The notes beneath the pieces were generated by a model. The model did not search any database, was not told the origin of the DNA, and saw only the letters and a list, made by a program, of their open reading frames with translations. A program made the position numbers and the translations under genes. From Devosia sp. (lineage in GTDB: Bacteria; Pseudomonadota; Alphaproteobacteria; Rhizobiales; Devosiaceae): 39,416 nucleotides of DNA. Numbering within the stretch: position 1 is the first letter of the stretch; every line of letters begins with the position of its first letter. The stretch is taken from NCBI GenBank assembly GCA_015657675.1, contig JACDQI010000209.1, positions 1 through 39,416 of the forward strand, in the 5' to 3' direction. Positions 1,677 to 27,952 of the stretch are shown here, piece by piece.

Positions 1677-2621
1677 GTGGCTGATTCAGAAGTTTTGATT
1701 GAGATCCTGCGCGCAGCAGGCGAGGGCACGCGCTTGCGGCTGCTATCGCTTCTGAGCGATGGCGAGCATTCGGTCAAGGATCTGACCGAAATCCTTGGCC
1801 AGAGCCAGCCGCGCGTCTCCCGCCACCTCAAACTCCTCGCCGATGCCGGGCTCATTGTCCGCAACGCCGAGGGCGCTTGGGCCTACTATGGCCTTGCGCC
1901 CAGCGGGGTCGGGGGCGACCTGGCGCGATGGCTCATTGGCCAGCTGGAGCCCGACGACCCAGATCGCCTGCGTGACCTCAACCGGCTGCGCCTTGTGCGT
2001 GCCGCCCAGCAGGAGCAGGCCGCCGCCTACTTCGCCAAGGTGGCCGAGAGCTGGGATCTGCTGCGCAGCCTGCACGTCCCGGAGGAAGCCGTCGAAGCTG
2101 CCATTGTCGAGGCGGTAGGCGACCGCGATTTCGAGGTCATGCTCGACCTTGGCACCGGCACGGGCCGCATGCTCGAACTGCTGGCGCCGCACTTTAAGCG
2201 CGGCATTGGGCTCGATTCCAGCCGTGAGATGATCGCCGTGGCGCGGGCGAGGTTGGCCTCGGCCGGCGTCGGCCACGCGCAGGTCCGGCTGGGCGATATC
2301 GGGGATATCGACAGCTCCATCGGCTCGGCCGATCTCATCGTCATCCACCAGGTGCTGCATTATTTCGATGATCCGGGCCGCATGCTGACGCAGGCGCGCC
2401 GCGCGTTGCGGCCGGACGGGCGGATGCTGATCGTCGATTTCGCGCCGCACGAGCTCGAATTCTTGCGCAGCCATCACGCGCATCGCCGCCTCGGCCTCTC
2501 CGAGGCGCAGATGCAGCAATGGGCGCGCGCCGCGGGCCTGCAGGTCCAGGCGCTCAAGACCTTTCCACCCCTCAGCGCGACCGAGGGGCTCACCGTCTGC
2601 CTCTGGCAGCTGGGCGAATGA
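1677..2621 (+). CDS. ArsR-family HTH regulator fused to SAM-dependent methyltransferase domain (SahR-like)
   Basis: N-terminal winged HTH (LRLLSLLSDGEHSVKDLTEILGQSQPRVSRHLKLLADAGLI) plus Rossmann methyltransferase motif (VMLDLGTGTGRMLELLAPHF); adjacent to metF. Confidence 0.85.
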   Translation: MADSEVLIEILRAAGEGTRLRLLSLLSDGEHSVKDLTEILGQSQPRVSRHLKLLADAGLIVRNAEGAWAYYGLAPSGVGGDLARWLIGQLEPDDPDRLRDLNRLRLVRAAQQEQAAAYFAKVAESWDLLRSLHVPEEAVEAAIVEAVGDRDFEVMLDLGTGTGRMLELLAPHFKRGIGLDSSREMIAVARARLASAGVGHAQVRLGDIGDIDSSIGSADLIVIHQVLHYFDDPGRMLTQARRALRPDGRMLIVDFAPHELEFLRSHHAHRRLGLSEAQMQQWARAAGLQVQALKTFPPLSATEGLTVCLWQLGE

Positions 2622-2637
2622 ACCGGGGACTTTTGTC

Positions 2638-3537
2638 ATGACTGCCCATTCCGATCCGCGCATGAGCCGCCAGATCACGCCCGGCGCGGCGCCGTTCCAG
2701 GTGTCGTTCGAGTTCTTTCCGCCCAAGACCGACGTCATGGAAGAGCGGTTCTGGGATTCCATCGGCAAGCTCGCCCCGCTGCATCCGCGCTTCGTTTCCG
2801 TCACCTACGGCGCCGGCGGCACCACGCGCGAACGCACATTGCGCATGGTTTCGCGCATCAAGTCCGATACCGGCGTGGACGCGGCTGCGCACCTCACCTG
2901 CGTCGGCGCCTCGCGTGACGAGGTCGACGCCGTCGTGCGCGGCTATCAGGCCGTCGGGGTCAACCGTATCGTGGCGCTGCGCGGTGATCCGCCGGAAGGC
3001 ACCGGGCAGCCGTTCGTGGCGCATCCCGAGGGCTATCAGAACGCTGCCGAGCTGGTTGCGGGCATCCGCCGCATTGGCGATTTCGACATCTCGGTCTCGG
3101 CCTATCCGGAAAAGCACCCGCAGAGCCCAAACTGGGACGCCGAGATCGATAACCTCAAACGCAAGCTCGGGGCAGGGGCGTCGCGGGCCATCACCCAGAT
3201 GTTCTTCGACAATGACGACTATTTCCGCCTTCTCGATCGGGCAGAGAAAGCCGGCATCACCGCGCCGATCGTGCCGGGCATCCAGCCGATCCATTCGTTC
3301 AAGCAGATTTCGAGCTTTGCCGCCCGGTGCGGCGCCACCATTCCAAACTGGGTGGCGCAGCGCTTCGAGGGGCTCGACGAGGATCCCGAGACCCATGCGC
3401 TGGTCGCCTCGGCGGTCGCTGCCGAGCAGGTGCTCGAACTGGTCGACCAGGGGATCACCGAGTTCCATTTCTACACGCTCAACCGCGCCAATCTGGTGTT
3501 GGCGCTGGCGCGGCTGCTCGGGGTGCGTCCCTCCTGA
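2638..3537 (+). CDS. metF: Methylenetetrahydrofolate reductase
   Basis: SFEFFPPKT, FVSVTYGAGGTTRERT, VALRGDPP, ITQMFFDNDDYFR, EFHFYTLNRANL motifs. Confidence 0.95.
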   Translation: MTAHSDPRMSRQITPGAAPFQVSFEFFPPKTDVMEERFWDSIGKLAPLHPRFVSVTYGAGGTTRERTLRMVSRIKSDTGVDAAAHLTCVGASRDEVDAVVRGYQAVGVNRIVALRGDPPEGTGQPFVAHPEGYQNAAELVAGIRRIGDFDISVSAYPEKHPQSPNWDAEIDNLKRKLGAGASRAITQMFFDNDDYFRLLDRAEKAGITAPIVPGIQPIHSFKQISSFAARCGATIPNWVAQRFEGLDEDPETHALVASAVAAEQVLELVDQGITEFHFYTLNRANLVLALARLLGVRPS

Positions 3538-7295: not shown

Positions 7296-9003
7296 AGGCG
7301 CGGCGACCATCGCGCTTGATGGCGCCCGCAAGTCCCGCGGCAATCTCACCAAGGCCCGCATTCGCTGGGTGATCCTGGCGCTGCTGATCGTTTTCGGCAC
7401 CGTCGCCGGGCGATTGATCCAACTGGGCTGGGTGGTCACCGACACCACGATCGAGGGGCAGGCGCGCGACATCATCACTGCCTCGCGTCCGGCACTGCTC
7501 GATCGCAATGGCCTTGAGATGGCCGTCGATATCCGCGTGCCTTCGCTCTATGCCGAGCCGCGGCGCATCATCGACGTCGAAGAAGCGGTGCAGAAGCTCC
7601 GCACCGTGCTGCCCGAGCTGGATGCCGACTGGCTGCGCAAGCGTCTCACCGGCGACAAGGGGTTTGTTTGGGTCAAGCGCGAGCTGACGCCGGCGATCGA
7701 AGACGCGATCTTTGCGCTCGGTCTGCCTGGCTTTGATTTTGTGCAGGAGAGCAAGCGCTTCTATCCCGGCGGCAAGGAAGCCTCACACATTCTGGGTGCG
7801 ACCAATATCGATAATCAGGGCATTGCCGGTATCGAAAAGTACATGGACGATCAGGACGTGGCGCTGCTGCAGTCGCTCGGCCTGGCGCGCGGCAATGACC
7901 TGACCCCGGTGAACCTGTCGATCGATCTGCGCGTGCAGCACGTCCTCTATCAGCAGCTCAGCGACTCCCTGGTGCGCTACAAGGCGATCGCTGCGGCGGG
8001 GGCGATGATGGACATCAAGACCGGCGAGATCATCGGCATGGTGTCGCTGCCGGACTATGATCCGAACAATCCGCAGAGCGCCTTTGAAGACTTCATGGGC
8101 AAGAAGAACCAGCGCTTCAACCGCGTCACCTCGGGCATCTATGAGCTGGGCTCCACCTTCAAGACGGTGACCATGGCTGCGGCCCTCGACAGCGGCAAGG
8201 TCAAGATCACGGACACGTTCGACGCCCGCTATGGCGTGCGTTTTGGTCGCTTCACCATCGATGATTTCCACGGCAAGCACCGCGTGCTGACCCTGCCGGA
8301 GGTCTTCAAGTATTCATCCAACATCGGCACCATCAAGGCCATGCAGCAGATGGGCAAGGAAGATTTCCGCGCCTTCCTCACCAAGGTGGGGTTCGACACG
8401 CAAGTGACGATCGAACTGCCGGAAAAGCGCTTGCCGACTATTCCCGAGAGGTTCTCCGAGATCGTCGCGGCTACGTCCAGCTTCGGTCATGGCCTCTCGA
8501 TCTCGCCGATGCATATGCTCCGGGCTGTCGCTGCGTTCGCCAATGACGGCAACATGGTGACGCCGACCCTCTTCAAGCGGAGCGAAGAGGAGGCGAGGAA
8601 GCTCTACACGCCGGTGATCTCGAGCCGGACGAGCGCCCAGATGCGATACCTGATGCGGCTCAACGCCCTTGAGGGCTCGGGCACACGCATGAACAAGGAG
8701 GCTGCGGGCTATCGGGCCGGCGGCAAGACCGGGACGGCCGAGAAGGTCGTTGGCGGACAGTACTCGGCCAACAAGACACTTACTGTCTTTTCGTCCGCCT
8801 TCCCGCTCGACAATCCGCGCTATGCCATGATCATCATGGTGGATGAGCCGCAGAAAGAAAATGCCCAGTCTGGAAATACAGCAGGCTGGAATGCCGGCGA
8901 GATAACCGGACGCGTCGTTGCGCAGGTGGCGCCGATGCTCGGCATCAGCCCTGACTTCAACGAAATGCTGGATTCAAATCTTGTCCCTGTCGAAATCCGT
9001 TAG
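7279..9003 (+). CDS. ftsI: Peptidoglycan transpeptidase / penicillin-binding protein FtsI
   Basis: GSTFK (SxxK), YSSN, GGKTGTAEK active-site motifs; N-terminal TM; overlaps the ftsL 3' end. Confidence 0.95.
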   Translation: MALLSEGAATIALDGARKSRGNLTKARIRWVILALLIVFGTVAGRLIQLGWVVTDTTIEGQARDIITASRPALLDRNGLEMAVDIRVPSLYAEPRRIIDVEEAVQKLRTVLPELDADWLRKRLTGDKGFVWVKRELTPAIEDAIFALGLPGFDFVQESKRFYPGGKEASHILGATNIDNQGIAGIEKYMDDQDVALLQSLGLARGNDLTPVNLSIDLRVQHVLYQQLSDSLVRYKAIAAAGAMMDIKTGEIIGMVSLPDYDPNNPQSAFEDFMGKKNQRFNRVTSGIYELGSTFKTVTMAAALDSGKVKITDTFDARYGVRFGRFTIDDFHGKHRVLTLPEVFKYSSNIGTIKAMQQMGKEDFRAFLTKVGFDTQVTIELPEKRLPTIPERFSEIVAATSSFGHGLSISPMHMLRAVAAFANDGNMVTPTLFKRSEEEARKLYTPVISSRTSAQMRYLMRLNALEGSGTRMNKEAAGYRAGGKTGTAEKVVGGQYSANKTLTVFSSAFPLDNPRYAMIIMVDEPQKENAQSGNTAGWNAGEITGRVVAQVAPMLGISPDFNEMLDSNLVPVEIR

Positions 9004-9028
9004 CCCGGTTCCAGAAGGAAATACGCAC

Positions 9029-10471
9029 GTGCCGTTCGTACTGGCAGAATTGCTCAAAGGAACGGGGGCCAGAAAGGTCCCCTCGCTGACGGTGGCCGGC
9101 GTGCATGCCGACAGCCGCGAAATCGGTGCTGGCGAGGTCTTTTTCGCCATATCGGGCACCAATGTCCATGGCGATGCCTATGCGCCTCAGGCGCGCGAGC
9201 GCGGTGCCGTGGCAATGGTCACGGACCGGGCGCCGAAGACCGATCCCGGCATTCCCGTGGTGCTCGTCAAGGATGTGCGGACCGCCTATGCCAATGCCGC
9301 GGCGCGCCAGTTTGCGTCCATTCCAGCGACTGAAGTCGCGGTGACCGGTACGAACGGCAAGTCGTCGATCGTTTCCTACGTGCGCCAGATCTGGACCTAT
9401 TGCGGCATCAAGAGCGCCAGCATGGGGGACCATCGGCATCGACGACGCCGAGGGGTCGAGCCGGCCGAACTCACGACCGCGGATCCCCTGACGCTGCACC
9501 GCAACCTCGCCGACCTCAAGTCGCGCGGTGTCGATCACGTCGCCATGGAAGCCTCGAGCCAGGGCCTCGACCAGCGCCGACTGGACGGCCTGCGATTTAA
9601 TGCCGTTGCCTTCAGCAACCTCAGCCGCGACCATCTCGACTACCATATCGACATGGAGACCTATCGCGAGGCCAAGCTGCGGCTCTTCCGCGACCTGCTT
9701 GCCGATGGTGGCGCGGCCGTGGTCAATGCTGATGACGAAGAGCACATGCCCTTCCTATTTGCCGCACTCGACCGTGGGGCGACCTTGCTGACGATCGGCA
9801 AGGAAGGGGCATTCTTCGAGATTGGCGACGTCGTCAACGAAGGCTATGGGCAGCGCGTCACCGGCCGCATGGTCGGTGAGCCTGTAAGCTTTCACCTGCC
9901 GCTGACCGGCGCCTTCCAGGTCAGCAACGCCGTCATGGCGCTGGCGCTGGCCATTACGACCGGCGCACCGCCCGAAAAGGCGGTCGAGGCGCTGGAAACG
10001 CTCAAGGGCGCCAAGGGCCGCATGGAGCTGGTCGGCGAGCACAATGGTGCGGCGATTTTCGTCGACTACTCGCACAAGCCCGCTGCGTTGGAGTCAGCGC
10101 TCACGTCGCTCCGCCCATTCGCCAAAAAGAAGCTGCATGTGGTGTTCGGCGCCGGCGGCGACCGCGACCGCGGCAAACGCCCGCTGATGGGCGAGGTTGC
10201 GCAGCGGCTGGCCGATGTGGTCATCGTCACTGACGACAATCCACGCACCGAAGATCCAAAGCTGATCCGCACCCAGATCATAGCCGAGGCCCCCAAGGCC
10301 AAAGAGATTCCGGATCGGCGCAAGGCCATCGAGACCGCGATCGGCCAACTCAAGCCGGGTGATGCACTGCTGATTGCAGGCAAGGGCCATGAGGATTATC
10401 AGATCATCGGAACCACCAAACACCATTTCTCCGACCACGAGGTGGTCCGGGAGATTCTAAAAGGGATGTAG
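9029..10471 (+). CDS. murE: UDP-N-acetylmuramoyl-tripeptide synthetase MurE (contains an out-of-frame internal segment)
   Basis: VTGTNGKSS P-loop, MEASSQGLDQRRLDG, SRDHLDYH, VVFGAGGDRDRGKRPLMG, VTDDNPRTEDP; residues after ASMG read DHRHRRRRGVEP instead of the conserved GTxG continuation. GTG start at 9029 preceded by AGAAGGA. Confidence 0.92.
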   Translation: MPFVLAELLKGTGARKVPSLTVAGVHADSREIGAGEVFFAISGTNVHGDAYAPQARERGAVAMVTDRAPKTDPGIPVVLVKDVRTAYANAAARQFASIPATEVAVTGTNGKSSIVSYVRQIWTYCGIKSASMGDHRHRRRRGVEPAELTTADPLTLHRNLADLKSRGVDHVAMEASSQGLDQRRLDGLRFNAVAFSNLSRDHLDYHIDMETYREAKLRLFRDLLADGGAAVVNADDEEHMPFLFAALDRGATLLTIGKEGAFFEIGDVVNEGYGQRVTGRMVGEPVSFHLPLTGAFQVSNAVMALALAITTGAPPEKAVEALETLKGAKGRMELVGEHNGAAIFVDYSHKPAALESALTSLRPFAKKKLHVVFGAGGDRDRGKRPLMGEVAQRLADVVIVTDDNPRTEDPKLIRTQIIAEAPKAKEIPDRRKAIETAIGQLKPGDALLIAGKGHEDYQIIGTTKHHFSDHEVVREILKGM

Positions 10472-10477
10472 CCGCGC

Positions 10478-11875
10478 ATGAGACCACTCTGGACCGTCGC
10501 CGAGGTTGTTGCAGCCACCGGCGGACGGCCGGAAGGTCTGCTCGAAGGTCCGATCGGCTCGATTTCGATCGACTCGCGGGATATTCAGCCCGACGCTCTC
10601 TTCGTCGCCATCAAGGGCGACACGCACGATGGCCACGATTTTGTCGGCAAGGCACTGGAGCAGGGCGCCGCTGCGGCGCTGGTTTCCGAGGCCTTCCACG
10701 CCCGTAATGGTGGCAGCAAGCTCATTGTCGTTGCTGATCCGCTGGCGGCACTGACCAAGCTTGCTGTGGCCGCGCGGGCGCGCAGCCAGGCGCAGATCGT
10801 GGCTGTCACCGGCAGCGCCGGCAAGACCACCACCAAGGAGGCGATGCGGACCGTTTTAGCGGCGGTTGGCGAGACGCATGCCTCGGTCAAAAGCTTCAAC
10901 AACCACTGGGGCGTTCCCCTGACGCTGGCGCGGCTGCCGCGCGAGGCACGCTTCGGCGTCTTCGAGATCGGCATGAACCACGCCGGTGAGATCACTCCGC
11001 TGGTCAAACTGGTGCGGCCGCATATCTCGGTGATCACCACCGTCGCGGCTGCGCATCTCGAGTTCTTCGCATCGGTGGCCGATATTGCCGTGGCCAAGGC
11101 AGAGATCTTTCTCGGGCTCGAGCCCGGCGGTACGGCGGTGCTCAACGGCGACCACGAATATCTTCACATTCTCTTCGGCCGCGCCCGGGAGGCGGGCGTG
11201 TCGCGCATCGTCACCTATGGCTTCGACGAGAGCTGCGACTGGCGCATCACCGGCTATGAGGCGCGCGGTGGGCGGACGCATCTCTCGGTGGTACACGACG
11301 GGCAGGTGCACGAACTGAGCTTGCAGGTGCAGGGCAGGCACATGGCTGCCAACGCCGTGGCGGCCCTCGCTGCCGCCAGCCTTGCGGGAGAGGGTCCGTC
11401 GACGGCTGCTGCTGCACTGGCTGGGTTCGGCGCGCCGGAGGGCCGTGGGGAGAGCGCACGGCTCGGACCCGCGGATCGGCCACTGCTGCTGGTCGACGAA
11501 AGCTATAACGCAAATGTGGCTTCGATGACGGCAGCGCTTGACGTCTTTGCCGGTGTTTCTGCACCTGGGGGGCGAAAAGTGTTGGTGCTGGGCGACATGC
11601 TGGAGCTTGGGCCGCTTGGTCCGGAACTTCACGCATCGCTCAAGGATGCCGTGCTAAAATCCGGGGCAGACAGGATCTATCTCGTCGGTCGGGCGATCGA
11701 TGCACTGGGCAAAGCGCTGGGCGAAGGGTTCGTCACGGCTCAGGCCGCCAGTATCGACGAGATTGCCGAAGCCATTCTTTCCAGCCTTGCGCATGGCGAT
11801 GCTGTTATGGTCAAAGGGTCCAATGGCGTGCGCCTGTCGAGCCTCGTGAAGCTGATCCGCGAGCGTTTCGCCTGA
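10478..11875 (+). CDS. murF: UDP-N-acetylmuramoyl-tripeptide--D-alanyl-D-alanine ligase
   Basis: VTGSAGKTTTKE, SFNNHWGVPLTLARLP, EIGMNHAGEI, LVDESYNANVASM, LGDMLELG. Confidence 0.96.
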   Translation: MRPLWTVAEVVAATGGRPEGLLEGPIGSISIDSRDIQPDALFVAIKGDTHDGHDFVGKALEQGAAAALVSEAFHARNGGSKLIVVADPLAALTKLAVAARARSQAQIVAVTGSAGKTTTKEAMRTVLAAVGETHASVKSFNNHWGVPLTLARLPREARFGVFEIGMNHAGEITPLVKLVRPHISVITTVAAAHLEFFASVADIAVAKAEIFLGLEPGGTAVLNGDHEYLHILFGRAREAGVSRIVTYGFDESCDWRITGYEARGGRTHLSVVHDGQVHELSLQVQGRHMAANAVAALAAASLAGEGPSTAAAALAGFGAPEGRGESARLGPADRPLLLVDESYNANVASMTAALDVFAGVSAPGGRKVLVLGDMLELGPLGPELHASLKDAVLKSGADRIYLVGRAIDALGKALGEGFVTAQAASIDEIAEAILSSLAHGDAVMVKGSNGVRLSSLVKLIRERFA

Positions 11876-11904: not shown

Positions 11905-12990
11905 ATGCTGTATTTTCTGGGGCAGTTGGGCGAGAGTCTCGCCGCCTTCAACGTCTTCCGGTACATCACCTTCAGAACCGCAGGCGCCGTGGTGACGGCG
12001 CTGTTCTTCGTGTTCCTGTTCGGGCCCGGCATGATCGCGTCCCTGCGCATCCGCCAGGGCAAGGGTCAACCGATCCGCGAAGATGGTCCGCAGTCGCACC
12101 TGCTGACCAAGAAGGGCACACCCACCATGGGCGGGCTGATGATCCTTTCCGGCGCCGTGATCTCGACGCTGCTCTGGTCCAACCTTTCCAACGGCTATGT
12201 CTGGTGCGTGCTGTTCGTCACCATCGGCTTTGGCGCGATCGGCTTTTATGACGACTATCTCAAGGTCAAGCGCATGTCGCATAACGGCTTTTCGGGCCGC
12301 CAGCGGCTGCTGCTGGAAGCCCTGATTGCTATCATTGCCTGCTATGTCATCTCCATTCTGGGCGAGCCGGGCTCGTCGACCTCGCTGTTCTTCCCGTTCG
12401 TAAAGGGGCTCGCGGTCAACCTGGGCTGGTTCTTCCTGCTGTTTGGCGGCTTTGTGATCGTGGCCGCGGGCAACTCGGTGAACCTCACGGATGGCCTTGA
12501 TGGCCTCGCCATCGTGCCCGTGATGGTGGCGGCGGCCTGTTTCGGGCTGATCGCCTATCTCGTCGGCTCCGTGACTTTTTCGGACTACCTGCTGATCAAC
12601 AACGTGCCGGGAACGGCGGAGCTTTCGGTCGTCTGTGGGGCCCTGATCGGCGCCGGCCTCGGTTTTTTGTGGTTCAACGCGCCGCCGGCGCAGATCTTTA
12701 TGGGCGATACCGGCTCGCTCGCGCTGGGCGGCGCACTGGGCACCATCGCGGTCGCCACCAAGCACGAGATCGTGCTCGCCATCATCGGCGGCCTCTTCGT
12801 GCTCGAAGCGGTTTCGGTGATCGTGCAGGTCGCCTCGTTCAAGCTTACGGGCAAGCGGGTATTCCGCATGGCGCCGATTCACCACCATTTCGAGCATCTG
12901 GGCTGGACCGAGAGCCAAGTGGTGATCCGGTTCTGGATCATCTCCTTCGTCCTGGCCCTGATCGGGCTGAGCTCCCTCAAGCTGCGCTAG
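11905..12990 (+). CDS. mraY: Phospho-N-acetylmuramoyl-pentapeptide-transferase
   Basis: [44 protein letters not shown]. Confidence 0.97.
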
Positions 12991-13012
12991 ATTCGCAAAA
13001 CGCGAAACCGGT

Positions 13013-13035
13013 CGGACTTTGGTAACCAAAGTCCG
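13013..13035. repeat. 23-nt near-perfect palindrome in the mraY-ftsW intergenic gap
   Basis: CGGACTTTGGT-A-ACCAAAGTCCG, 11-bp arms around a central A; a weaker TTCGC-AAAAC-GCGAA hairpin lies at 12992-13006. Confidence 0.8.
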
Positions 13036-13091
13036 TCTAGAGTGCGTGCAAGTAGAGTTATCGGGAGCCGCCGGGCAGGGCGGGTCAGTTC

Positions 13092-14252
13092 ATGTTTTCA
13101 CGGGATCGCAAGACACCCATCGCCGAGTGGTGGTGGACGATCGACAAGCAATTGCTGTCGGCTTTGATCCTCCTGCTCGTTGTGGGGGTCGTCCTCAGTT
13201 TCGCCGCCAGCCCGCCGGTGGCCGAACGGCTCGGGCTCGATGCCTGGCACTTCGTGGTGCGCCACGCCATGTTCTCGCTGATTGCCCTGGGCGTGCTGGT
13301 CGCCACTTCGATGCTTCCGCATCGCAGTGCGCGCATTTTCGCCATTATGGTGCTCGCTGTCAGCATTGTCCTGCTCTGGCTCACGCTGAAGTTCGGCGTC
13401 GAGGTCAAGGGTGCCAAGCGCTGGATTTCGGCCTTTGGTCAAACCATTCAGCCCTCGGAGTTCGTCAAACCGGCCTTTGCGGTGATCGGGGCCTGGCTCT
13501 TTTCTGAAAGCATGAAGCAGAAGGGCATGCCGGCCCGCACGCTGGCGACGCTCATCATGCTTGCGATTGTCGGCGGGCTGCTGCTGCAGCCCGATATCGG
13601 ACAGACGGCTCTTGTCCTTGCTACCTGGGCCGCGCTGCTGTTCCTGTCCGGCATTTCCTGGTTTGTCATCGGCGGGCTCGGGGTGGCTGCAGTCGGGCTC
13701 TTGTTCGGCGCTTATGCGTTCTTCCCGCATTTTGCCAAGCGCATCGACAGCTTCATGAACCCCGAGGAAGGCAACACCTATCAGGTCGACAAAGCGCTCT
13801 CTTCGCTGCTGGAAGGCGGCTGGTTCGGCCGTGGACCGGGTGAATCGCTGGCCAAGAAGGTCATTCCGGACGCCCATGCCGACTACGTGTTTTCCGCGGC
13901 GGCCGGCGAGTTCGGCATTCTTTTCTCGCTTTGCCTGGTCGCGCTCATCACCTTCATCGTCGTCCGGGCGCTTAATGGGGCGCAACGGCAGGCGAGCCTG
14001 TTTGCGCGGCTGGCGGCCTCGACTCTGGCTATTCAGTTCGGGTTACAGTGCAGCATTAACCTGGCGGTGAATCTCAACCTGATCCCGCCAAAAGGCATGA
14101 CGCTGCCTTTCGTCTCCTACGGTGGTACCTCGATGATCGCCATTGCCTTCGGCATGGGCTTGATGCTGGCGCTGACGCGTAAGCGGCCGGAGGAACGCAT
14201 GGTCTCCGGCCTGCCGCTCTATCGCGTCTCGGCTATCGCACCCGCCGAATGA
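13092..14252 (+). CDS. ftsW: Peptidoglycan glycosyltransferase FtsW (SEDS family)
   Basis: Polytopic SEDS protein; QPSEFVKPAF, NPEEGNTYQVDKAL, PDAHADYVFSAAAGEFG, GMTLPFVSYGGTSM. Confidence 0.96.
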   Translation: MFSRDRKTPIAEWWWTIDKQLLSALILLLVVGVVLSFAASPPVAERLGLDAWHFVVRHAMFSLIALGVLVATSMLPHRSARIFAIMVLAVSIVLLWLTLKFGVEVKGAKRWISAFGQTIQPSEFVKPAFAVIGAWLFSESMKQKGMPARTLATLIMLAIVGGLLLQPDIGQTALVLATWAALLFLSGISWFVIGGLGVAAVGLLFGAYAFFPHFAKRIDSFMNPEEGNTYQVDKALSSLLEGGWFGRGPGESLAKKVIPDAHADYVFSAAAGEFGILFSLCLVALITFIVVRALNGAQRQASLFARLAASTLAIQFGLQCSINLAVNLNLIPPKGMTLPFVSYGGTSMIAIAFGMGLMLALTRKRPEERMVSGLPLYRVSAIAPAE

Positions 14253-15343
14253 GCACTTTTGTTCTCATGGCAGGCGGCACGGGAGGTCATCTCTTCCCGG
14301 CCATGTCCCTGGCGCAGGAGCTGCGGCGGCGCGGCCACATCATTCACTTGATGACCGATCATCGGGTCGAAAGCTATGGCGGCGATTTTCCTGCGCGCAG
14401 CATTGAGATCGTGCCCTCGGCAACGCCGTCAGGTCGCAATCCCGTGCAGTTCACTCTGGCGGGCTTCAAGATCCTGGGCGGCATCGGGGTCGCCCTATCG
14501 AAACTTCGCTCGCTGCGTCCCGATGGCGTCATCGGTTTTGGCGGCTATCCAACGTTTCCGCCCTTTCTGGCCGCTCGGCTGCTCGGCATTCCTGGCATGC
14601 TGCACGAGCAGAATGCCGTTATGGGCCGCGCCAATCGCGCGCTGGGCCGGTTCGCGCAGGTTCTGGCGCTGAGTTACGAGAATACCCGCTTTGCCGACAC
14701 GCTTGCCGCCCGCAAGCAACTGACCGGCAATCCTGTTCGGGACAAGGTCCGGGCGCTTGCCGGCACGCCCTATCCGGCGCTCGATGACACTGGTCCGCTG
14801 CGCCTCGTGGTCGTTGCCGGCAGTCAGGGTGCGCGGGCTTTCTCCGACATCATCCCGGACGCCATCGGCCTTCTGCCTGAGCCGATGCGCAAACGGCTGC
14901 AGATCGCCCAGCAATGCCGGGCCGAGGATCTCGATCGGGTGGCCGAGACCTACCGCAAGCTCAAGATCAATGTCGAACTCGCGACCTTCTTCAACGATCT
15001 ACCGGAACGCGCCGCGCGGGCGCATCTGATGATCTGTCGATCTGGCGCCTCGACCATTGCCGACGCCTGCGTTATCGGTCGGCCGATGATTCTCGTGCCG
15101 CTGCCGGGCTCGCTCGATGCGGACCAGAAGAACAATGCACTCGTGGTCGATGCAGCCGGTGGCGGCTGGATCGCCGAACAGGCCACGCTTTCGCCACCTT
15201 CGCTTGCGACTCGCCTGAGCTCACTTTTCGGTGAGCCGGAGACGCTGCGAACTGCCGCAGCCGCGGCCAAATCGCTCGGGCAGCCGAACGCGGTTGAAAA
15301 GCTCGCCGACGCGGCAGAACGCCTCGTCGTCAGGGGGAAATGA
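14249..15343 (+). CDS. murG: UDP-GlcNAc:undecaprenyl-pyrophosphoryl-MurNAc-pentapeptide GlcNAc transferase
   Basis: [60 protein letters not shown] overlap with ftsW. Confidence 0.97.
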
Positions 15344-15347
15344 AAAT

Positions 15348-16775
15348 ATGAAAATGCCGCGCAATATCGGTCCGGTGCACTTTGTCGGCATCGGGGGCAT
15401 CGGGATGAGCGGCATTGCCGAAATCCTGCACAACCAGGGCTATGTCGTCCGCGGGTCGGACAGCGCCGAAAACCCTAATGTGCAGCGCCTGCGCAAGATG
15501 GGCATCGAGGTCCAGATCGGCCAGAGCGCCGACAACCTCAAGGACGCCGCTGTCGTCGTCATCTCCTCGGCCATCAAGAAGGGCAATCCAGAACTGGCTG
15601 CGGCTCGTGCGCGCGGCCTGCCAGTGGTCCGCCGGGCCGAGATGCTGGCCGAGATCATGCGGTTCAAGAACGCCATTGCCATCGGCGGCACGCACGGCAA
15701 GACCACGACGACCACGCTGGTCGCCACGCTGCTCGATGCCGGCAACATGGACCCGACCGTCATCAACGGCGGCATCATCAATGCCTACGGCACCAATGCT
15801 CGACTGGGCGGCGGCGAGTGGATGGTGGTGGAAGCCGACGAGTCTGACGGCACTTTCGTCAAGCTCCCCGCCGACGTGGTGATCGTTACCAATGTCGATC
15901 CCGAGCATCTCGACCACTATCACGACTTCGACCACGTCAAGCAGGCGTTCCTCAACTTCGTCGAAAACGTGCCGTTCTACGGCTTTGCCGTGATGTGCCT
16001 CGACCATCCGGAAGTGCAGGCACTGGTCGGGCAGATCCGCGATCGCCGCGTCATCACCTATGGCCGCAACCCGCAGGCTGACGTTCGTCTGGTCGATCTT
16101 GAAAGCCGCGACAACGGCGTGCAGCACTTTGCCGTCGAGATCCGTGATCGTATCCGGCAGACGCATTTGCGTATCGAGGGCCTCGAATTGCCGATGCCGG
16201 GCGAGCACAATGCGCTTAATGCGACCGCCGCCATTGCCGTTGCCGACCAGCTCAAGGTGCCGGCCGAAGCCATCCGCAAGGGGCTCAAGAACTTCTCGGG
16301 CGTCAAACGCCGCTTCACTCGTACCGGGACGGTTGGTGGCATCACGGTCATCGACGACTATGGTCACCATCCCGTCGAGATCGCCTCGGTGCTCAAGGCC
16401 GCGCGGCAATCGACCAAGCGCGACGTCATCGCCGTCGTGCAGCCACACCGCTACTCGCGCCTCAACGACCTCTTCGACGACTTTGCGGCCTGCTTCAACG
16501 ACGCCGATACAGTGATTGTGGCGCCGGTCTATGCGGCGGGCGAAGCGCCGATTGAAGGCGTAACGCACGAGGAACTGGTCACGCGCATCCGCGCCCGCGG
16601 CCACCGCGACGCGCGCGTCATTGATCGTGCCGAAGCGCTGGCGCCGCTGATCGCCAGCCGTGCCGCCAGCGGCGACTATGTCGTCTGCCTCGGGGCAGGG
16701 AACATTACCCAGTGGGCCGCGGCCCTGCCGGGCGAACTGGGCACGTTGCTCGGCGTGGAGCCGGAACTGCCATGA
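15348..16775 (+). CDS. murC: UDP-N-acetylmuramate--L-alanine ligase
   Basis: [55 protein letters not shown]. Confidence 0.97.
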
Positions 16776-17761
16776 GCGATCCCGTGCTCTGGCCTGATCT
16801 GCTGCCCGGTTTCCAGCCCTGGATCGCTGAAGTCCGCGGCAAGCTGGTGCCGAACCAGCTTCTCAGCGAAGTGACCTGGTTTCGGGTCGGCGGCCCGGCG
16901 CAGCTGTTCTTCCAGCCGGCGGACGAAGCCGATCTGGCGTTTTTCCTCAAGCACCTGCCGCGCGAAATTCGCGTCACCACCATCGGCCTCGGCTCGAATC
17001 TCTTGATCCGAGATGGCGGCCTCGACGGGGTGGTGATCCGCCTCTCGGCCAAGGGTTTTGGTGGCATCGACGTGCTGGACGATCACCGCATTCGCGTCGG
17101 CACGGCGTTGCCGGACGTCAAGGTGGCGACGGCGGCGGCCGAAGCGGGGATCGACGGGCTCACCTTTTATCGCGGTATTCCCGGCGGCATCGGGGGTGCG
17201 CTTTACATGAATGCCGGCTGCTACGGCACCGAGACGCGCGACCGCATGGTCGAGCTCCGCGCTGTCACCCGCGAAGGGGAGATCGTCACCCTCAGCAATG
17301 CTGACATGGGCTACCTCTACCGCAAGTCCAACGGGCCGCGCGGCGCCGTCTATACCTCGGCGGTCTACCAGGGCTTTGCGGGGGATCCGGCCGACATCCT
17401 CGAACGCATGCGGCAGATCACCGAAAAACGCGAGGCCAGTCAGCCGACGCGCGCCAAGACCGGTGGCTCGACCTTCAAGAACCCCGAGGGCCATTCGAGC
17501 TGGAAGCTGATCGACGAGGCGGGCTGTCGCGGTCTGATCGTCGGCGGCGCGCAGATGAGTGAGCTGCACGCCAACTTCCTCCTCAACATCAATGATGCGA
17601 CGGCGTTTGATATCGAGACGCTGGGTGAAACGGTGCGCAACCGGGTGCGGGCCAAGTCGGGCATCGAGCTCAAGTGGGAAATCCGGCGCATGGGTCATTT
17701 CCTGCCGGGTCGGGAAGTTCGGGAATTCATGGACGGCGACGTCTTTACGGGAGCTGTCTGA
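16772..17761 (+). CDS. murB: UDP-N-acetylenolpyruvoylglucosamine reductase
   Basis: [61 protein letters not shown]. Confidence 0.96.
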
Positions 17762-18681
17762 TGAGCAAGCACGTCGCTGTCCTGATGGGCGGCTGGTCAA
17801 ACGAGCGGCCTGTATCGCTGAAATCTGGCCGGGAATGCTCGGATGCGCTGCAGCGCGCCGGCTATCGGGTCACTGACATCGACGTGGGTCGCGACATCGC
17901 CACCGTGCTGATGGAGCTCAAGCCGGACGTTGTCTTCAATGCTCTCCACGGCCCGTTCGGCGAGAGCGGCATGATCCAGGGCCTGCTCGAACTGCTGCAA
18001 CTGCCCTACACGCATTCGGGCGTGCTGGCTTCGGCGCTCGCCATGGACAAGCACCAGGCCAAGATCGTGCTCAAGGCCGCCGGCATTCCGGTCACCGATC
18101 ACCTGATCATGCACCGCGCCGATGTCGCCAAGGCGCATGCGATGCCGCCGCCTTATGTGATCAAGCCGATCGCCGATGGCTCGAGCTTTGGCGTCTTCAT
18201 CGTCAAGGGCGATCATGCGCATCCGCCGCAGGAGATCCTGCGCGAGGATTGGAACTCGGGTGATGAGGTGATGGTCGAGCGCTACATCCCGGGTCGCGAG
18301 CTCACCTGCGCGGTGATGGGCGACGTCGCTTTGGGCGTCACCGAGATCGTTACCGACCTGCAGTTCTACAATTATGAGGCAAAATACGCCAAAGGTGGCT
18401 CGCACCACCTAATTCCGGCGCCGCTGCAACCGAATATTTACGATAAAGTGCAGAAACTGTCGCTCAAGGCGCATGCTGCGCTTGGGTGCCGAGGCGTATC
18501 GCGGACGGATTTCCGCTTCAACGACAAGGCCGGGCCGGACGGGGAGCTCGTCTGTCTCGAGGTCAACACCCAGCCAGGCATGACTGAGACGTCGTTGGTT
18601 CCCGAACAGGCCAAGTTTGCTGGCCACTCATTCGAGGAGCTGGTCTCCTGGATGGTGGAGGATGCGAGTTGCAACAGGTAG
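17761..18681 (+). CDS. ddl: D-alanine--D-alanine ligase
   Basis: [62 protein letters not shown]. Confidence 0.96.
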
Positions 18682-26193: not shown

Positions 26194-26287
26194 CAAATTC
26201 TGTTGCTTGTTTGTTCTTGCTCACGCTAGGTTGGCCCGGCGCGGGGAAGGGTGATGGTTCGCGCTGGTTTGAGGGTTTGTTCCCGGA

Positions 26288-27952
26288 ATGCTGAGTGCGC
26301 TGTCTGTCCGCAACATCGTTCTGATCGATCAGCTCGATCTGGCACTCGACTCAGGCCTTACCGTGCTGACGGGCGAGACCGGGGCCGGTAAATCCATTCT
26401 CCTTGATGCGCTGACGCTGGCACTGGGCGGCCGCGGCGATGCCTCGCTGGTGCGGGCCGGGGCTGAAAGCGGGCAGGTGGTCGCGGTGCTGTCGCTGCCG
26501 CGCGCCCATCCGGCCCGCGAAGCTCTGCGCGACAATGCCGTTGCCGATGATGAGGACGTCATCCTCCGCCGCGTGCAGTACGCTGACGGCCGGACCCGCG
26601 CCTTCATAAACGACCAGCCCGTCTCCGCCGGGCTGTTGCAGACCGTTGGCCGACTGGTGGTGGAAATCCACGGTCAGCACGATGACCGCGCGCTTGTCGA
26701 CGTCGCCACGCATCGTGCTGCGCTGGACGCCTTTGGCGGTTACGATGTGGCCAGTGTTCGCGCTGCCCATGCCGCCCTGGTCGAAGCCGACACCGCCGTA
26801 GCGGCGCAGAAGGCGATCATCGACGAAGCGTTGTCGCGTGAGGACTATGCCCGCCACGTGGTCGAGGAACTTGCAGCCCTGGGTTTGGAACTGGGCGAAG
26901 AAGAGGTTCTGGCCGAGCGACGGCAGCGGCTGATGACGCTGGAGAAGGCGGCGGAGGAAGTCCGCGATGCCGATGAAATTCTCAACGGGCCGAGCGCCCC
27001 CGGACCGGTTCTCGCCGGGCTGATGCGGCGGCTCTTGCGCAAGGCCGAAGGCGGCGCCGCGATCTTCCAGCCAATTGTCGAGGCACTAGATGCCTCGCTT
27101 GTGGCGCTGGACGGCACCTCGGATGCACTCGAAACGCTCAAGCGCGAGATGGCTTTCGATCCGGCCGATCTGGAACGGGTAGAGGAGCGGCTCTTTGCCC
27201 TGCGCGCCGCCTCGCGCAAGCATCACGTCACCGCCGATGGGCTGCTCGATGTGCTCGCCAAGTATCGCGGCGAACTGGAGATGCTGCAAAGCGGGGAAGA
27301 ATCGCTCAAGACGCTGGAAGCCACCGCTGCGGCCGCCCGCGAGGCCTATCTCAAGGCGGCGACCAAGCTCAGCGCCGAGCGCGAGAAGGCCGCCAAGGCA
27401 TTGACCAAGGCCGTGGAAGCCGAGTTGCCGGATCTCAAGCTGGGCGCTGCCCGCTTCATCGTTGACCGGCAGGTGGATAGTGCCCGGGTCGCGGCCACCG
27501 GCTTTGACCAGGTGGCCTTTCACGTGCAGACCAACCCCGGGACGCTTGCCGGTCCGTTGCTGAAGGTCGCTTCGGGCGGCGAGCTCAGCCGGTTCCTCCT
27601 GGCCCTCAAGGTGGTGCTGGCCGATCGCGGCTCGGCGCCAGTGCTGATCTTTGACGAAATCGACACCGGCGTCGGCGGTGCAGTGGCCGACGCCATCGGC
27701 CGTCGCCTCGGCCGGTTGGCGGGCAGGGTACAGGTCATCTCGGTGACCCACGCGCCGCAGGTGGCAGCACGTGCGCAGACGCACCTACTCATCGAAAAAC
27801 AGGCGATTTCCGAAGGTGCCTTCATGCGGACCCATGTCCGGCCGCTCGACGAGCCGGCGCGGCGCGAGGAAGTGGCCCGCATGCTGGCCGGCGCCACTGT
27901 CACCGAAGAAGCGCGCGCGGCGGCTCGCAAGCTCATTTCAGAGGTTGGTTGA
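26288..27952 (+). CDS. recN: DNA repair protein RecN
   Basis: MLSALSVRNIVLIDQLDL, GETGAGKSILLDALTLALGGR, EIHGQHDDRALVD, ASGGELSRFLLALK, FDEIDTGVGG, ISVTHAPQVAA. Confidence 0.96.
   Translation: MLSALSVRNIVLIDQLDLALDSGLTVLTGETGAGKSILLDALTLALGGRGDASLVRAGAESGQVVAVLSLPRAHPAREALRDNAVADDEDVILRRVQYADGRTRAFINDQPVSAGLLQTVGRLVVEIHGQHDDRALVDVATHRAALDAFGGYDVASVRAAHAALVEADTAVAAQKAIIDEALSREDYARHVVEELAALGLELGEEEVLAERRQRLMTLEKAAEEVRDADEILNGPSAPGPVLAGLMRRLLRKAEGGAAIFQPIVEALDASLVALDGTSDALETLKREMAFDPADLERVEERLFALRAASRKHHVTADGLLDVLAKYRGELEMLQSGEESLKTLEATAAAAREAYLKAATKLSAEREKAAKALTKAVEAELPDLKLGAARFIVDRQVDSARVAATGFDQVAFHVQTNPGTLAGPLLKVASGGELSRFLLALKVVLADRGSAPVLIFDEIDTGVGGAVADAIGRRLGRLAGRVQVISVTHAPQVAARAQTHLLIEKQAISEGAFMRTHVRPLDEPARREEVARMLAGATVTEEARAAARKLISEVG

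Follow-up and report, generated by a model that had tools for sequence, protein, structure and literature searches.

MurL-linked MurD2 very probably replaces the canonical murD missing from the dcw cluster of a Devosiaceae bacterium

The dcw cluster of a Devosiaceae bacterium lacks murD, and comparison of its sequence with those of relatives makes it very probable that this organism makes its peptidoglycan D-Glu by the MurD2/MurL pathway and that the canonical gene has therefore been dropped from the cluster. The window, i.e. the whole stretch of 39,416 nucleotides that was analysed, is contig C9 of a 3.94-Mb draft genome (G000; 317 contigs, 85% complete). Replacement of this kind is already known biology and an ordinary trait of the Devosiaceae. 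In Xanthomonas oryzae (XOO_1320/XOO_1319; Feng et al. 2017) MurD2 adds L-Glu, which MurL then epimerises to D-Glu with ATP (PMC8788868, PMC5808125), and alphaproteobacteria that use the pathway and lack D-Glu-forming genes include, according to a 2021 review, Devosia, Pelagibacterium and Parvularcula (PMC8788868). Judging from its gene content, the present organism would operate the same pathway: MurD2 would add L-Glu, MurL, whose gene lies immediately upstream and overlaps that of MurD2, would epimerise the attached L-Glu to D-Glu with ATP, and MurE, MurF and MraY of the window cluster would then continue as usual. The emptied slot would now hold the ftsW promoter region with a conserved TTGGTAACCA-N-TAGA element; in this species the core of the element appears to lie by chance within a longer palindrome.

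The cluster itself is otherwise well preserved, and all of its genes lie on the forward strand. The upstream border of the slot is mraY, encoding phospho-MurNAc-pentapeptide transferase (11905-12990; TIGR00445, 413.8 bits, cut-off 192), and the downstream border is ftsW (13092-14252), whose best NCBIfam model, TIGR02614, scores 312.5 bits, slightly below its cut-off of 337.5. Between them lie the 101 bp (12991-13091) that most families of the order devote to murD. The first-pass annotation had placed both borders correctly and had seen no gene in the gap; a few frames are open there by chance and none fits as a gene. It had also listed murE, murF, murG, murC, murB and ddl in the window, all of which are recovered by profile matches: murE (8918-10471; NF001124, 581.7 bits, cut-off 476), murF (10478-11875; TIGR01143, 370.2 bits, cut-off 288.6), murG (14249-15343; TIGR01133, 256 bits, cut-off 250), murC (15231-16775; TIGR01082, 535 bits, cut-off 335), murB (16712-17761; NF010480, 372.7 bits, cut-off 259) and ddl, the D-Ala-D-Ala ligase gene (17674-18681; NF002378, 402.5 bits, cut-off 243), where murE, murC, murB and ddl are given as open reading frames from the first possible start. 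No murD-like gene occurs elsewhere in the window, as had been stated, and the only window genes hit by the murD model are murC, murE and murF, with scores that fall far short of the cut-off. Outside the cluster, positions 1677-3537 hold a fusion of an ArsR-type regulator with a methyltransferase and, after it, methylenetetrahydrofolate reductase (metF).

The empty slot is a property of the family. In the comparison of mraY-ftsW synteny that the first-pass annotation had proposed, murD is missing between the two genes at each of the 28 family loci, counting the window, where one contig holds both; besides the window, the murD-less junction thus recurs in 27 independent relatives, and some of these genomes consist of a single contig. 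The usual order mraY-murD-ftsW, which had been put forward as the alphaproteobacterial norm, holds for the rest of the order: of 24 other families, 21 have murD immediately after mraY in the same orientation, and the remaining three have the pair on separate contigs. MurL is distributed accordingly, being present in 35 of 36 sampled Devosiaceae genomes versus none of the 24 other families. Two family members (G017, G032) have about 1.5 kb of other DNA after mraY, and there too the only murD adjoins murL. An apparent absence of murD in three others (G010, G011, G014) was a false alarm, as the model match is fragmented and murD2 adjoins murL; in a further two (G003, G005) murL is split or cut by contig ends. 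Neither MurL nor murD was found in G021, but this is a 260-contig draft in which the contig stops 150 bp beyond mraY, so that nothing follows from the absence and both genes are perhaps missing from the assembly only. Outside the family, 13 of 14 MurL-bearing genomes have a single murD. The remaining one, G166, combines a murD of canonical type with a murD2 linked to MurL (C2:88529-89836 and C3:970964-972292) and is possibly an intermediate state.

The genome-wide MurD search that had likewise been proposed yielded a single gene that clears the cut-off; it lies on contig C44 and thus outside the window. This murD-family ligase adjoins MurL: murL lies directly upstream and the ends overlap, the murD2 ATG falling within the last codons of murL. 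The MurL on C44 matches NF041275 over its full length (6-440 of 445 aa) with 372 bits and an E-value of 2.4e-111, below a cut-off of 700 bits that was set for Xanthomonadales. Named MurL matches at 52-73% identity come from Devosia, Pelagibacterium, Maritalea, Cucumibacter and Arsenicitalea. In the murD2 copy of the present genome the reading frame is shifted by one base around codon 16 (L001:1328-1400; C44 about 26273-26345), which if real would destroy the only murD of the genome; since all relatives are intact and the assembly is a draft, it is probably a sequence error.

The residues of the ligase point in the same direction. Changes of E. coli MurD Asp182 and Lys348 to Glu and Arg set the L-Glu specificity of MurD2 (Glu197/Arg358) (PMC8788868), and Glu and Arg occupy these positions in all 104 MurL-linked MurDs versus none of 25 canonical ones, every one of which has Asp and Lys. 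The copy on C44 reads E and R (NLSPEHTDW, GGHERQQDY); it has neither the Asp182/Lys348 D-Glu site of canonical MurD nor the canonical place between mraY and ftsW. In the tree, the MurL-linked MurDs form one clade, set apart by a branch with an SH-aLRT support of 99.7. The column of E. coli Lys319 is occupied by Ile (once Asn) in the 104 MurL-linked MurDs and by Lys in 25 of 25 canonical ones; E. coli MurD becomes able to accept L-Glu through the change K319T (PMC8788868).

D-Glu-forming genes likewise did not reach their cut-offs. No glutamate racemase MurI scores above the cut-off in the sampled family genomes; 15 of 24 other families have one. A MurI-like match of 30 bits on contig C6 is instead a member of PF01177, the general Asp/Glu racemase family. 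D-amino-acid transaminase likewise stays below its cut-off of 277 bits in the present genome and throughout the family, the best match being 108 bits in the former versus about 218-264 bits in 23 of 24 other families; two relatives, G022 and G029, reach 214 and 260 bits. Neither kind of D-Glu-forming gene was thus found above cut-off in the present genome at its 85% completeness.

To account for the missing gene, the first-pass annotation had offered relocation, replacement by a nonhomologous or distant ligase, and loss in assembly at a repeat. Of these the second stands, in its distant-ligase form, as the only murD is a MurD2 of a separate clade that adjoins MurL. That the ancestral canonical gene simply moved and still adds racemase-made D-Glu is very improbable: a murD-family gene above the model cut-off does exist on another contig, as relocation would predict, but its clade and its substrate-determining residues both differ from those of the old gene, its neighbour is MurL, and the family offers no MurI above the cut-off to supply the substrate, the weak racemase match being PF01177. 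Misassembly at the palindrome might have been suspected in a draft this fragmented with an inverted repeat at the very place where murD is expected, but it can be given almost no credence and is already refuted by the relatives, 27 of which independently show the same gap, with no second murD elsewhere. The palindrome is moreover single-copy, and therefore offers no dispersed repeat for an assembler to collapse. A second murD could lie unseen in the missing part of the present genome, but relatives that are 99-100% complete have one only. The MurL-linked clade, the Glu/Arg pair and the family-wide gap together therefore indicate that murD was replaced, and neither simply moved nor lost in assembly.

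The gap is a putative ftsW promoter region. It contains a promoter-like element on the forward strand (13019-13043), composed of TTGGTAACCA at 13019-13028 followed by TAGAGT at 13038-13043. The pattern YTGSTAACCA-N7-10-STA has its single genome-wide match at this site. Of 28 family loci, 24 keep TAACC between -46 and -98 relative to ftsW. The conserved form embeds TAACC in (Y)(Y)G(G/C)TAACCA and has TA(C/G)(A/G) 8-10 nt later; two further loci keep GGTAAC with a different next base. The strict motif is found in none of 21 canonical loci within the 200 bp before ftsW; the comparison is imperfect, since murD coding sequence makes up most of that stretch. The gap holds further features in some relatives: G008 carries a PIN-domain toxin-antitoxin-like pair on the opposite strand (L087:2583-3304), the gaps of G018 and G020 (L085, L089) are of similar size and appear alike, and G001 contains a GIY-YIG protein gene together with short dispersed repeats of the GTCATCCCAGCGAAAGCTGGGATCC type (L084:2623-3027).

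The inverted repeat noticed in the first-pass annotation is real, with arms of 11 nt (13013-13023 and 13025-13035) that are 100% complementary and separated by a single nucleotide (CGGACTTTGGT-A-ACCAAAGTCCG). By our own arithmetic, chance would produce about 0.01 perfect repeats with such arms per 39 kb. The genome contains a single copy, and the gaps of relatives do not share its symmetry, which rules it out as a dispersed repeat. The palindrome is unrelated to the loss of murD and overlaps the conserved promoter-like element of ftsW.

The element may represent an ftsW promoter that arose, or was needed, once murD had left and the mraY-murD-ftsW chain was broken, and it is rather likely that the arrival of murL-murD2 in the Devosiaceae freed ftsW from this chain and gave it a conserved promoter of its own. 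Alternatively, and more tentatively, the element could be a half-site for CtrA, which would put ftsW under cell-cycle control; its TAACCA fits the half-site TTAACCAT used for Hyphomicrobiales (PMC11527210), and the CtrA-regulated genes of Caulobacter include ftsW (PMC2877005). However, the conserved core STAACCAW differs from TTAACCAT by one mismatch, the first base here being G or C rather than T, and a strict element that occurs just once in this genome is unlike a regulon motif. It is unlikely that the palindrome itself acts, apart from the promoter, as an operator or as an RNA hairpin (attenuator) controlling ftsW. The perfection of its arms, the folding of the gap RNA, which is better than that of shuffled sequences (z -2.8), and the near self-complementarity of the conserved core TGGTAACCA would suit such a role, but the outer arms are not conserved and several relatives carry the nonsymmetric TTGCTAACCA with unrelated flanks. 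Nor does the mraY-ftsW gap contain a T-run or any other terminator-like site, and an Rfam search of 12991-13091 gave zero matches. What is conserved, the TAACC core followed after 8-10 nt by a TA(C/G)A box, resembles a promoter or a half-site.

MurL is described in reviews as having no known domain and an unclear mechanism (PMC8788868, PMC5808125). A Pfam search with MurL found no family at E 0.1, PF06508 included, a PDB sequence search gave no match above noise and PADLOC returned nothing significant. The AlphaFold2 model of MurL (L001:10-1338), with a pLDDT of 93.4, has its top Foldseek matches in QatC (9y02/9y01, E 1e-6), QueC (2pg3/3bl5) and Cap9, with a probability of 1.00, and its TM-score of 0.66-0.67 over the length of QueC places the predicted structure in the same fold. 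The hallmarks of QueC are an SGGxDS phosphate loop and a C(x)8CxxCxxC zinc motif (PMC13329287). Like the QueC/QatC (PF06508) PP-loop enzymes, MurL possesses a P-loop, GGGKDS, with G instead of S as its first residue, and a cysteine motif, C-x14-C-xx-C-xx-C; GGGKDS is found in 101 of 102 MurLs and C(x)nCxxCxxC in all 102. It is unlike them in that sequence searches of Pfam and PDB make no link, and in its substrate and outcome, which is epimerisation. An AMP-forming adenylation has been proposed for MurL (PMC8788868), and the predicted QueC-like fold and motifs would fit such a step. Two papers on the QueC family (PMC13329287, PMC13279940) make no mention of MurL, but the relationship may be stated elsewhere.

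An essential gene can thus disappear harmlessly from a highly conserved cluster where a two-enzyme detour takes over, and here its loss has become fixed family-wide. For annotators this means that genomes without a gene in the murD slot are not to be called defective, and the fold match of MurL, which is studied as a narrow-spectrum antibiotic target, suggests chemistry that can be tested. Compared with the canonical dcw cluster of E. coli and of other families of the order, the remaining mur and fts genes stand in the usual order here too, but the place of murD between mraY and ftsW is taken by 101 bp that carry a conserved promoter-like element. Devosiaceae MurL is about 40% identical to the Xanthomonadales form, and the arrangement differs from that of Xanthomonas oryzae in its order murL-murD2 with overlapping ends. 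Both systems are alike in that murL and murD2 are adjacent, in the lack of MurI and in a single murD per genome, and the specificity residues Glu/Arg/Pro are identical to those of X. oryzae MurD2.
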